64,000 nucleotides of DNA from the NCBI GenBank assembly GCA_020629155.1, contig JAHDDW010000009.1, positions 1 to 64,000 on the forward strand, written 5' to 3'. Positions 4,500-48,512 of the stretch are shown here, piece by piece. This DNA comes from Acidimicrobiales bacterium. GTDB lineage: Bacteria > Actinomycetota > Acidimicrobiia > Acidimicrobiales > SZUA-35. A model generated the notes under the pieces. The model ran no database searches, was not told the DNA's origin, and worked only from the letters and a program-made list of their open reading frames with translations. The translations under genes and the position numbers were made by a program. Position 1 is the stretch's first letter. Each line of letters begins with the position of its first letter.

Positions 4500-5732
4500 A
4501 TGAGAATATTGTTTGTTTGCCCTCATTTCACGCCAGACCTTCATGCAGCGACTGGCGAGGTTATGACAAAACTTGTTGAATCGCTTGCAGCAAGAGGCCA
4601 TGAGCTAACGGTGGTAACGTCGCTGCCCTGGTATAAAGGTCACAGCGTTGATAAAGCGTGGCGTGGTAGGCCATGGCGCAAAGAAAAAACAGCGTGGGGC
4701 CGAATCATACGAGTGTGGCCTTTCCCAACAAGCAAGAACAGCATCGCAGCTCGAGCCGCAGGGTTTGTCGGGTTCACAGCATTAGCAAGCGCCGCTGCTT
4801 TAACCGCTGGCAAACATAATGTTGTGATGGGCATGTCGCCGCCGCTTTTTCTTGGTGACGCCGCATATTTGGCGGCTAAGCGAAGCAAGGCGCCATTTGT
4901 TTTCAACACGCAAGATATTTTTCCTGATGTAGCTGTTGAACTCGGTGCGTTAACAAATGCAAAGGTGATTTCACTCGCTAAAAAATATGAAGCTGCAATG
5001 TATCGCCGCAGTGATGCAATAACCGTTCTTTCTGATGACCAAGCGGCGAATGTGCGTGCAAAAATATCTTCGCAAAGCGCCAAAAAAGTTCATATTATTC
5101 ATAACTTTGTTGATCTGGAGAAAGTGCAACCGCGTCCGAAAGAAGGCTCATATCGTCGCCGTCATGGTTTGTCTGGCAAATTTGTTGTTATGTATTCGGG
5201 TAATGTGGGGCTGTCACAATCGTTTGACTTGGTACGATCTGCTGCTGAGCATTGGCAGCATAATCAAAACATTGTTTTTGTCATCAACGGCGAAGGTTCA
5301 GGACGGCCGCAAGTCGATCGTTGGGCACAAGCAATGCCAAACGTGAAGGTTGTTAATTTCGGCCCTCGTCGCGAAGTGAGTTCTATTCTTGGCGCAGCAG
5401 ATGTGCACCTTGTATTACTGAAAAAAGGCTTATCAAAAAGTTCGACACCCTCGAAACTGTACGGAATCTTAGCAGCTGGCCGCCCTGTGTTAGCCAGCGT
5501 CGATGAAGGCTGCGAAGTGGCTAATGTTATCGAGCGAGCTGGTGTCGGCCTGTCTGTTGGGCCAGAAAAAACAAACGATTTTCTGGTTGCTTTAGAAACA
5601 TTAATGAATGACCAAGAGCAGTTACAAGTGATGGGCAAACGAGCACGAATTTTTGCTGAAGAATGGCTGAGTGCAGAGAAACAGGCCGAAATGTATGAGC
5701 AACTTTTTGTGCAACTATGCGACAAGAGGTAG
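4500..5732 (+). CDS. WcaI/WbuB-like GT4 glycosyltransferase
   Basis: A 410-aa protein beginning MRILFVCPHFTPD. It has a hydrophobic Ala-rich stretch at about residues 80-105 followed by GMSPPLFLG and NTQDIFPDVAVELG, features typical of the WcaI/WbuB branch of GT4 enzymes that act on lipid-linked or membrane-associated acceptors. The donor half has MYSGNVGLSQ and the late TPSKLYGILAAGRPV. A GGAG ribosome site lies upstream of the ATG. It follows the two other glycosyltransferases after a 61-base gap and is probably part of the same transcription unit. Confidence 0.86.
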   Translation: MRILFVCPHFTPDLHAATGEVMTKLVESLAARGHELTVVTSLPWYKGHSVDKAWRGRPWRKEKTAWGRIIRVWPFPTSKNSIAARAAGFVGFTALASAAALTAGKHNVVMGMSPPLFLGDAAYLAAKRSKAPFVFNTQDIFPDVAVELGALTNAKVISLAKKYEAAMYRRSDAITVLSDDQAANVRAKISSQSAKKVHIIHNFVDLEKVQPRPKEGSYRRRHGLSGKFVVMYSGNVGLSQSFDLVRSAAEHWQHNQNIVFVINGEGSGRPQVDRWAQAMPNVKVVNFGPRREVSSILGAADVHLVLLKKGLSKSSTPSKLYGILAAGRPVLASVDEGCEVANVIERAGVGLSVGPEKTNDFLVALETLMNDQEQLQVMGKRARIFAEEWLSAEKQAEMYEQLFVQLCDKR

Positions 5733-5772: not shown

Positions 5773-5938
5773 CTAGTGGTGTGTCGTCTAATTAATCGAT
5801 GTGTTCTGACGGCTCTTAGAAGTTCTGACGTTGTCCTAAAAATCGCCATTACTACCAGGTAGTGACGATTTCTCGTTCTAGTCAGAACTCCAAATATCTC
5901 GCCATAACAACGTCGCCATTTAGACGACACACCACTAG
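5773..5938. mobile_element. MITE-like element with 18-bp perfect terminal inverted repeats
   Basis: The sequence CTAGTGGTGTGTCGTCTA at 5773-5790 is repeated exactly as its reverse complement at 5921-5938. The 130-bp interior has no ORF and is itself largely palindromic: GTTCTGAC (about 5822) pairs with GTCAGAAC (about 5880), and AAATCGCCATTACTACC pairs imperfectly with GGTAGTGACGATTT around a central axis near 5858. Both ends are CTAG, which could be a 4-bp target duplication as made by some IS5-group elements. Partial relatives lie at 46911-46959 and 19437-19453. Confidence 0.75.
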
Positions 5939-5967: not shown

Positions 5968-6444
5968 ATGAGTAAACCAAAAGGAATTATAATAAGCGGC
6001 TATTTCAGCCCGCTGCATGTAGGCCATCTTGATATGATCGATGCCGCAGCAGCTGCGGGTGACAAACTTATTGTTGTCGTTAATAATAACGCTCAACAGA
6101 TGTTAAAAAAAGGCAAAATTATTATCGACGAGAAAGATCGTGTTCGTGTTGTCGAGGCGCTAGCAAAAGTAGATGACGTTATTCTTTCGATTGATGAGAC
6201 GCGTGATATTAGCAAAACAATTCAAACAATAGCTGACAAATATAGTGACCATGAGCTTGTTTTTGCTAACGGCGGCGACCGCTCTTCTGGTGCTGTCGTT
6301 CCCGAGACAGGTGTTTGCGAAGCAAACGCTATTGAAATGGTTTTTGGTATGGGAGGCAATGAAAAAGCCGATTCTAGTACTCGCATTAATATGGAATTAG
6401 GCTACGAAACCGAAGCGTCAGCCTTACCAAGCGAAAACAGCTAA
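5968..6444 (+). CDS. Cytidylyltransferase-family nucleotidyltransferase
   Basis: A 158-aa protein with the nucleotidyltransferase-superfamily ATP/CTP binding motif HVGH at residues 17-20 in ISGYFSPLHVGHLDMI. The later family motif ISKTIQ replaces the usual ISSTxIR, and the C-terminal part has FANGGDR. Relatives activate phosphorylated polyols or sugars as CDP or ADP derivatives (glycerol-3-phosphate cytidylyltransferase, RfaE C-domain). With three glycosyltransferases just upstream, a role in supplying an activated building block for a surface glycan is plausible but inferred. A GAGGAG ribosome site precedes the ATG. Confidence 0.78.
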   Translation: MSKPKGIIISGYFSPLHVGHLDMIDAAAAAGDKLIVVVNNNAQQMLKKGKIIIDEKDRVRVVEALAKVDDVILSIDETRDISKTIQTIADKYSDHELVFANGGDRSSGAVVPETGVCEANAIEMVFGMGGNEKADSSTRINMELGYETEASALPSENS

Positions 6445-13845: not shown

Positions 13846-15432
13846 ATGTTTAAAGTTTTTGTTTCTGACAAACTGGGTCAAGCAGGGCTAGAAATTCTAG
13901 AAGCTGCTGATGACGTTGAAGTAACCGTCAATACTTCGCTAGACGAAGCGGGTTTGGTCGAAGCAATTACTGACTATGACGGGCTTATTATCCGCTCTGG
14001 GACAACTGTAACTGAAAACATTTTAAAGGCGGCAAAAAATCTTAAAGTTGTCGGCCGTGCAGGTGTCGGCGTTGATAACGTCGACATTGAATCTGCTACT
14101 CGCCACGGCGTCATTGTCATGAACACGCCGTCGGCTAACACAATCGCAACAGCAGAACATGCACTGGCATTGATGCTTTCGGTAAGCCGCCATATTGTAC
14201 CTGCACACAATTCGCTAGCAGCAGGGGAGTGGAAGCGGTCAAACTTCGGCGGTAGCGAACTGCGAGGCAAGATGTTAGGCGTTATTGGCTATGGTCGTGT
14301 AGGTCGTGCCGTGGCTGCACGTGCGAAAGCGTTTGAAATGAATGTGTTAGTGTATGACCCATATGTGAGCGAAACTGTTGCGAAAGAAACAGGTGTTGAA
14401 CTCGCCAACCTTGACGAGGTTCTGGCAGCGTCTGACTATGTGACACTGCATTCTGTGCTTAATGAAGAAACACAGAACCTTATCAATACCGACCGCATTG
14501 CGTTGATGAAAGATAGCGCTGTGTTGATAAACGTGGCACGCGGTGGTTTGGTTGACGCTGATGCTGTAGCCACAGCGCTAGACGAAGGCAAACTAAGCGC
14601 TGCGGGGTTAGACGTGTTCGCGGTTGAACCTCCAAAAGAGTCTAATCGTCTAGTAAATCATCCAAAGGTTGTTCACACGCCGCATCTCGGGGCCTCAACA
14701 GCTGAAGCACAACGAGATGTAGCAATCGACGTTGCAACGCAAGTTGTTGAAGCGTTACGAGGCGACAAAATAACGAACTGTGTTAACCTTGGCTTCTCTA
14801 GTGGTGCGTCGTTTGATCGTCTTGCGCCGTTTATTGAGCTGGCCGAAAAAATCGGTGCAATTCAGGCAGCTATGGCCGAGAATCCTATCACCTCAATAGA
14901 AGTTGAAGTGTTAGACGCAGACGCAGAAGAACTTTTGAAACCGGTTGCTGCTGGCCTTATGAAAGGTCTCCTGGCTTCTGACTATCCTGGCCTTATCAAC
15001 TATGTAAACGCGCCTGTGCTAGGCCAAGAGCAAGGTTTAGCAGTTTCGCGTGCAGTCGGCATAGGTGGGTCCTATCATCGGAACCATATTGCTTGCAGGG
15101 TAAAGTTTGACGGTGGACAACGAACAATTTCAGGTGTTGTTTATGAAGGCGATAAGCAGCGAATCGTGCAAATTTCTAGCTATAGGTTTGAAGCCGACCC
15201 TCATGGTCCTGTGCTGTTGCTGCTCAATAACGATGTTCCTGGTGTGGTTGGCTCTGCTGGCACGGCGCTTGGTGAATGCGGTATTAATATCGCCGAATGG
15301 CGTTTAGGTCGTGATGAGGCCCGTGACGAGGCATTATCGTTTGTTAACTTAGACCGTTTGCCATCCGATGATGAACTTGCAAACATCAAAAAACTAGATC
15401 CTGTTGTTAAAGCCATTGTTCTAGATTTATAG
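13846..15432 (+). CDS. serA: D-3-phosphoglycerate dehydrogenase
   Basis: At 528 aa this is the long, ACT-bearing form of SerA. The substrate domain flanks a Rossmann domain with GVIGYGRVGRAVA at about residue 145. The catalytic Arg is in INVARGGLVD and the His in HTPHLGAST. An intervening domain follows at about 320-450 and an ACT domain (LLLLNNDVPGVVGSAGTALG) closes the protein, as in actinobacterial enzymes inhibited by serine. It oxidises 3-phosphoglycerate to 3-phosphohydroxypyruvate using NAD. The gene lies with serB, which strengthens both assignments. Confidence 0.97.
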   Translation: MFKVFVSDKLGQAGLEILEAADDVEVTVNTSLDEAGLVEAITDYDGLIIRSGTTVTENILKAAKNLKVVGRAGVGVDNVDIESATRHGVIVMNTPSANTIATAEHALALMLSVSRHIVPAHNSLAAGEWKRSNFGGSELRGKMLGVIGYGRVGRAVAARAKAFEMNVLVYDPYVSETVAKETGVELANLDEVLAASDYVTLHSVLNEETQNLINTDRIALMKDSAVLINVARGGLVDADAVATALDEGKLSAAGLDVFAVEPPKESNRLVNHPKVVHTPHLGASTAEAQRDVAIDVATQVVEALRGDKITNCVNLGFSSGASFDRLAPFIELAEKIGAIQAAMAENPITSIEVEVLDADAEELLKPVAAGLMKGLLASDYPGLINYVNAPVLGQEQGLAVSRAVGIGGSYHRNHIACRVKFDGGQRTISGVVYEGDKQRIVQISSYRFEADPHGPVLLLLNNDVPGVVGSAGTALGECGINIAEWRLGRDEARDEALSFVNLDRLPSDDELANIKKLDPVVKAIVLDL

Positions 15433-18477: not shown

Positions 18478-19440
18478 ATGACCGTAGTTACCCCGTTATC
18501 ACTTCAACAATGCATTCCTGATGTGGAGCTTGCAGCACTAAGCGAAACGATAGAAAAAATTGAGCGCCTCAAAAAAGAGCGCAACGCTATTGTGCTGGCG
18601 CACAATTATATGACGCCTGATATCTATCACACTGTTGCCGACATCAAAGGTGATTCTCTGGCGCTTGCCCATGCAGCAGCCGAAACCGACGCCGACGTGA
18701 TTGTGTTTGCTGGCGTTCATTTCATGGCTGAAACTGCAAAAATAACTTGTCCTGAAAAAACCGTGCTTATCCCAGATCTTGATGCTGGCTGTTCTTTGGC
18801 CGAGTCTATAACCGCCGCTGATATTCGTCTTCTGCGTGAACGCTACCCTGGGGTTCCAGTTGTCGCTTATGTGAATACGTCTGCTGAGGTGAAAGCCGAA
18901 GTTGACATTTGCTGCACTTCAGGCAACGCAGTGCAAGTGGTCGAATCGCTAGATGTCGACCGGGTTATCTTCTTACCAGACCAGTACCTTGGTCGTTGGG
19001 TTGCCACACAAACCGATACCGAGATTATTTTGTGGGAAGGCAGCTGCATGGTACACGAGCTTTTCACAGGCGCCGAACTTCGTGAATATAGACAAAGCCA
19101 CGATGGCGTCGAAATCATCGCGCACCCTGAATGTCCGCCCGACGTGCTAGCCGAAGCAGACTTTGTTGGTTCTACAGCTGGCATGATCGGCTGGGTTAAA
19201 GACAACAAGCCGAAAAAAGTAGTCATGGTGACCGAGTGTTCTATGTCTGATAACGTTGCGCTTGAAACGCCTGATGTGGAGTTTGTGCGGCCATGCAACC
19301 TGTGTCCACATATGAAAAAGATTACACTCGAAAAAATTGCGACCTCGTTAGAGACAATGAATCATGAAGTTGTCATCGCACCAGAAATGGCCGAAAAAGC
19401 TCGTCGTTCTGTTGACGCAATGCTGAAAATCGCTGTCTAG
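18478..19440 (+). CDS. nadA: Quinolinate synthase A
   Basis: A 320-aa protein with the three-fold repeated NadA architecture: [81 protein letters not shown] and [12 protein letters not shown]. Cysteines in AGCS, HPEC and the C-terminal CNLCPHMK can ligate the [4Fe-4S] cluster. It condenses iminoaspartate with dihydroxyacetone phosphate to quinolinate. nadB follows, giving the first two steps of de novo NAD synthesis. Its TAG stop lies within a MITE-end-like sequence. Confidence 0.97.
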
Positions 19441-19453
19441 GGGTGTGTCGTCT
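19437..19453. mobile_element. MITE terminal-repeat relic at the nadA stop
   Basis: CTAGGGGTGTGTCGTCT differs by one base from the terminal repeat of the full element at 5773. It begins with CTAG, whose TAG is the stop codon of nadA. No second end is visible nearby, so this is a solo end, or a chance match of 16/17 bases. Confidence 0.4.
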
Positions 19454-19493
19454 TTAGCATGGCCAGAGGGCTAGACTTCTATGGAGAACACTC

Positions 19494-46905: not shown

Positions 46906-46910
46906 CGCTG

Positions 46911-46959
46911 CAAATATCTCGCCATAATAACGTCGCCATTTAGACGACGCACCACTAGA
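46911..46959. mobile_element. Half copy of the MITE-like element
   Basis: 49 bases match 5891-5939 of the full element with two mismatches, including the right terminal repeat and CTAG end. The left half is absent. It sits between the rhomboid and phosphatase genes, in the promoter region of both, and may contribute promoter or stop sequences. Confidence 0.75.
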
Positions 46960-48449: not shown

Positions 48450-48512
48450 TCGTCATTCCCACGAAAGTGGGAATCTCTCTTGGACAAGATCCCCGATTTC
48501 TCGGGGATAACC
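48450..48512. repeat. Twin-hairpin dispersed repeat, copy 2
   Basis: This 62-base unit is the reverse complement of 61-117 with a few mismatches. It contains ATTCCCACGAAAGTGGGAAT (48455-48474) and ATCCCCGATTTCTCGGGGAT (48489-48508), both perfect or near-perfect hairpins. It is in the 337-base non-coding gap between the zinc-ribbon and metalloprotease genes. Confidence 0.75.

Follow-up and report, generated by a model that had tools for sequence, protein, structure and literature searches.

The window, that is, the whole 64,000-nucleotide stretch that was analysed, carries a 166-bp non-coding palindromic element, hereafter E1, with an exact span of 5773-5938. Its neighbours are a glycosyltransferase gene (4500-5732) on one side and a cytidylyltransferase-like gene (5968-6444) on the other. 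An earlier note, made from the sequence alone, had described an element of this length with a palindromic interior between glycan genes, and this description was confirmed. It had also given perfect inverted ends of 18 bp; the perfect pair is there, with a length of 19 bp when CTAG is included (CTAGTGGTGTGTCGTCTAA / TTAGACGACACACCACTAG), inside the range of ~4-30 bp known for prokaryotic MITEs. E1 contains no ORF of at least 100 aa and, like these elements, is shorter than 500 bp and encodes no transposase. It is an imperfect palindrome throughout, with a predicted fold of -68.9 kcal/mol on the + strand and -76.8 kcal/mol on the - strand (z of -9.1 and -10.0, respectively), and no shuffled sequence equalled it on either strand. 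The features considered below are as follows.

5773-5938, + strand: probable full-length MITE copy E1, including the flanking C and G of the CTAG target (19-bp perfect ends; family; empty sites in congeners)
5774-5775, no strand: left copy of the putative TA target duplication (TA invariant at recognisable ends, outside base variable; analogy with IS630)
5776-5791, + strand: left terminal inverted repeat, GTGGTGTGTCGTCTAA, homologous to the ends of the IS630 clade L152, L156-L160
5840-5872, + strand: central hairpin, region of the conserved core ATCGCCATTACTACCAGGTAGTGACGATTT (copy alignment; fold)
5920-5935, - strand: right terminal inverted repeat, whose reverse complement and next bases match the left end of L159 at 20 of 24 positions
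5936-5937, no strand: right copy of the putative TA target duplication (same basis as the left copy)
46908-46958, + strand: truncated copy E4, right half only
19437-19455, + strand: possible solo end overlapping the stop codon of nadA (assigned by Pfam), not established as a copy (3 mismatches in 19)

As for the neighbouring genes, many Acidimicrobiales (loci L042-L056) share a conserved cluster made up of three glycosyltransferase genes and the cytidylyltransferase-like gene; at L052-L055, the cytidylyltransferase gene stands apart from the cluster and in the opposite orientation.

E1 belongs to a repeat family of the host genome, a draft assembly of 3.17 Mb in 59 contigs. Named relatives of one flanking gene indicate an Acidimicrobiales affinity for this genome. 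A DNA search of this genome identified 13 distinct loci at E <= 1e-3. A further copy, at C3:209519, shares the internal deletion of the one at C3:62417, bringing the family to ~14 secure loci, and a profile search agreed with this picture. The genome-wide search for the terminal repeat that the earlier note had called for, run with the 19-bp form, gave 19 occurrences against none for a control pattern; within the window, there were five occurrences at up to 3 mismatches against 0.02 expected. The copies are all intergenic, adjoin unrelated genes and occur in all orientations, as befits a prokaryotic MITE family with its multiple, dispersed and mostly intergenic copies. Most of them are truncated or internally deleted. 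The long copies besides E1 are E2 (C1:128606-128773, 168 bp, 77% identical to E1) and E3 (C18:129141-129271), which has an internal deletion. Partial or deleted copies were found on C20, C28, C30, C33 (at 46908 and 127658), C39, C56 (two) and C58. Short derivatives that kept both ends are E12 (C56:629-683, 55 bp) and the pair E11 (C3:62417) and E16 (C3:209519), each of ~62 bp; the deletion common to this pair points to copying of the short form itself. Two recurrences within the window had been put forward previously. The one at 46911-46959 is a real copy, E4 (46908-46958, 94% identity over 51 bases, E 5e-16). The one at 19437-19453 could not be established as a solo end, as it matches at 16 of 17 bases with an E of 2.97 genome-wide. 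It may be due to chance, given this weak E value and an equally good three-mismatch match at 14798, inside a gene. The latter site lies in frame within a gene read as serA and was itself put down to chance.

Several copies sit at gene ends. Indeed, for E7, E8 and E15, and likewise at the doubtful sites E14 and 19437 (nadA), the adjacent ORF has the TAG at the element end as its stop codon, and the response-regulator ORF adjacent to E3 extends into the element, where it ends. TAG, a stop codon, is part of CTAG, and insertion at a gene stop leaves the gene intact. The tetranucleotide is common in this genome, with 205 occurrences in the window against 235 expected.

A second palindromic repeat family, with GTCATCCCC...GGGGATGAC / GATTCCCA...TGGGAATC motifs, was noticed inside or directly against three MITE copies: L013 1369-1500 (C33 near 127.5 kb), L006 1390-1445 (C28 near 26.6 kb) and L078 1560-1690 (C39 near 67.7 kb). 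Copy E13 is interrupted by this family close to the loop of its palindrome. Nested palindromes have been reported for other bacterial repeats. In the window, short TCATTCCC / TGGGAATC motifs at 94-116 and 48453-48475 resemble the second family, and six TCATTCCC motifs with a 21-base spacing form a tandem array near a contig end (L013 2657-2770, C33 near 128.8 kb).

The two genes flanking E1 are adjacent in many relatives. In two congeners, the gap between them is 105 bp and ~60 bp, and the element is absent, which shows that E1 is an insertion. At the base level, the window has TGCA, CTAG-element-CTAG and AGTAGC, and these congeners have TTACTGGAGTAGC and GTATTAGAGTGATG at the corresponding place, that is, one CTAG-like tetranucleotide at the empty site against CTAG at both ends of E1, in an alignment made by eye over a palindromic target and between distant genomes (flanking proteins 58-72% identical). 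The E2 locus was considered as a second empty site and was uninformative, its upstream gene not being kept in relatives. Together with the dispersed intergenic copies, the inverted ends and the deletion derivatives, these same-genus genomes without the element between the same genes bear out the MITE-like family proposed in the earlier note, which had suggested comparing empty sites. The family was not detected in any of 60 relatives, nor in 396 genomes of the order Acidimicrobiales other than the host; a weak profile match in one genome (G002, E 0.03) lay in coding sequence, as judged by eye, and was discarded. Searches by blastn of phage and plasmid collections gave no copy or one trivial 32-base match, and exact 19-mer scans of genome-contig and viral-contig collections gave no match, some of these collections possibly omitting near relatives of the host.

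The two long copies E1 and E2 offered a view of how the palindrome has evolved. Despite 36 differences between the aligned sequences, the predicted fold of each is -68.9 kcal/mol, while the same substitutions placed randomly on E1 gave -34.8 ± 5.1 kcal/mol and never below -53.3 in 500 trials. Of the 55 base pairs of E1, 6 are broken in E2 against 15.7 expected, and another 6 are changed on both sides and still paired against 1.0 expected. When the ends and the central hairpin were excluded, the figures were 5 broken pairs against 11.0 (P 0.0024) and 5 double changes against 1.1 (P 0.0014); the reverse test, from E2 to E1 with the same exclusions, was weaker (P 0.06 and 0.025). Some of the paired changes follow subfamilies: by eye, the pair at positions 25/145 is C-G in E1 and E12 but T-A in E2 and E3. 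An equal fold reached through paired changes, despite 36 differences, shows that palindromy was maintained. Tentatively, the full palindrome, interior included, may have been kept while two subfamilies diverged by ~22%, either by selection on the hairpin or by repeated template-switch correction of one arm from the other. Template-switch correction of quasi-palindromes is a known process (e.g., PMC8604942). Both this process and hairpin selection, whether in transposition or as RNA, fit the data, and with only two full copies they cannot be told apart. Among the shorter copies, E12 clearly folds better than chance, but most of the others do so barely or not at all, which makes a function at every site less likely.

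We then considered which transposase might have moved the family. IS630 elements of the same order were collected, five of them checked with NCBIfam, and their ends were sought as TA-bounded inverted ends, the MITE not being used in the search. At both ends, most of these elements have C|TA|GTG. In one clade (L152 and L156-L160, with transposases 55-77% identical to one another), the ends are CTAGTG[GC]TnnGTCG, similar to CTAGTGGTnnGTCG. The nearest member, L159, matches the MITE at 14 of 14 outer bases with its right end and at 20 of 24 with its left end. Chimeric control loci mostly scored 10-14 of 18 and four reached 15-16, so that a lone score of 15-16 is not significant and the recurrence of CTAGTG is the telling point. 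Likewise, when ~1,250 CTAG-anchored sites outside the copies were compared with the MITE end, nearly all of the top-ranking matches were IS630 ends; two matches in this list, in L098, are the host genome's own E2. The MITE interior showed no clear similarity to the IS630 elements compared. Common ends and an unrelated interior make this a type II MITE in the sense of PMC10969869, its ends being homologous to those of autonomous elements in other genomes of the order.

In the host genome itself, neither of two models detected an IS630 transposase, no full element with the MITE ends was found, and no transposase was present among the examined neighbours of the copies. A full insertion sequence with the same ends, which the earlier note had advised looking for, was accordingly found only as homologous IS630 elements in other genomes of the order. 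A locus flagged in genome G001 by the IS630 domain model proved to be an IS3 element, and an end-like stretch near it was discarded as chance. Separately, a stretch of ~100 bp at L020 1422-1521 (C3 near 5.4 kb) has ends GTGGTGTGTCGCC / GGCGACACACCAC around an unrelated interior; it may be another MITE whose ends are of this kind and resemble the right end of L159 more closely.

The previous reading was of an IS5-group transposase duplicating a 4-bp CTAG target. A MITE moved by an IS5- or IS701-type enzyme with such a CTAG (YTAR) target would account for CTAG at nearly every copy end, and the earlier remark that every end has CTAG was nearly right. At every recognisable end, TA and the adjoining element base are the same, and only the outermost base departs from CTAG, in three copies: E3 reads TTAG on the left, and E8 and E11 read CTAA on the right. 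The base just outside TA is T (left) and G (right) in E3 and C (left) and A (right) in E11, so that these two copies differ between their own ends, against a 4-bp duplication; in E8, the right-hand base is A. A variable outer base around a fixed TA fits a TA duplicated within CTAG better than a duplicated CTAG, although mutation could also explain so few variants (3 of ~25 ends). The target duplication is then probably TA within a preferred CTAG target. ISY100 of the IS630 family targets TA almost exclusively, with duplication of the dinucleotide (PMC2170065), and IS630 has a TA target within CTAG according to the title of Tenzen and Ohtsubo 1991, cited in PMC2170065. Moreover, the sole DDE_Tnp_1 element of the host genome is an IS1182 with unrelated ends, no DDE_5 was found, and no IS5 or IS701 element with the MITE ends is present in this genome. 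Since the MITE ends are homologous to IS630 ends, we consider an IS5- or IS701-type helper improbable and the IS5 attribution not supported. The IS1182-family element mentioned above lies at L084 697-2380 (contig C55) and has inverted ends CACCCAGACCGTGTGAAAAC.

It had also been suggested that E1 might form an RNA hairpin that regulates or terminates its neighbours. The very stable fold on both strands and the palindrome preserved between E1 and E2 despite their substitutions would agree with a terminator, or with a functional RNA or regulatory hairpin conserved in the glycan operon, that recurs elsewhere by chance. However, the element is absent between the same genes in relatives, copies stand beside unrelated genes in all orientations and most of them have no fold beyond chance. 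Neither a terminator-like nor a sigma-70-like site was found within E1, and an Rfam search of the window returned only tRNA, with no curated RNA family matching E1. This explanation is, in our opinion, very improbable. Even less credit can be given to a REP/REPIN-like palindrome moved by a RAYT (HUH) transposase: the family is palindromic, intergenic and partly at gene 3' ends, as REPs are (PMC3733652), but its perfect terminal inverted repeats, conserved TA junction and ends matching a DDE insertion sequence all stand against it.

We therefore favour, with a probability of about 0.85, the view that E1 is a full-length non-autonomous type II MITE of IS630/Tc1-mariner type whose helper was lost or is missing from the assembly. 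Very probably, the family was spread by an IS630-type (mariner-like) transposase now missing from the host genome, even though the nearest IS630 with matching ends sits in another family of the order. A transposase of this kind, once present in the lineage, would have recognised ends of the type GTGGTGTGTCGTC... and moved the element. Insertion at the TA inside CTAG, with duplication of TA, would leave copies reading CTAG...CTAG. Copies would then have been internally deleted and truncated, one short derivative being itself copied, and the transposase would later have been lost, or be absent from the draft assembly. The family is probably dead or its helper hidden by the assembly. Indeed, a repeat collapsed or dropped in a draft assembly may account for the missing helper. 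No helper having been found, and the copies being diverged and for the most part broken, an old family whose helper has been lost is the simplest interpretation.

Several known systems resemble this one. The MITE shares its ends with the IS630 family (IS630, ISY100; Tc1/mariner superfamily), through the clade L152, L156-L160 of the same order; it differs from these insertion sequences in encoding no transposase, in having only the ends in common with them and in the lack of a detected helper in its genome. RUP of Streptococcus pneumoniae, a 107-bp MITE with IS630-Spn1 as helper, is likewise small, with IS630-like ends and TA targets (PMC2229807), but it has a resident helper and ~108 copies, against ~14 worn loci and no helper found here. 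Correia/NEMIS and ERIC are likewise of 100-200 bp, with inverted ends containing TA and transcripts predicted as one long stem-loop (PMC2229807); their sequence differs from that of the present family, and RNA processing has been proposed for NEMIS. QMITE2 of Coxiella burnetii is also of similar size (150-190 bp), mostly intergenic or at 3' ends, with few full-length copies and, like the present MITE, a hotspot where another element inserts (PMC5896051, PMC10969869). Unlike the present family, it has direct repeats of 7-11 bp and carries a GTAG REP.

Collectively, this is an ordinary mobile-element family, a new one of a well-known kind, and it adds an IS630-type MITE family in Acidimicrobiales, an order for which a text search of a literature collection returned no earlier report of such a family. 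It also corrects an IS5 reading based on CTAG ends alone: because the IS630 elements of the order sit in CTAG, target and TA duplication can together be mistaken for a 4-bp duplication. Finally, the maintained interior palindrome offers a small case on which selection of MITE hairpins can be tested against self-correction and, if the template-switch reading were true, such elements would be natural records of arm-to-arm homogenisation.
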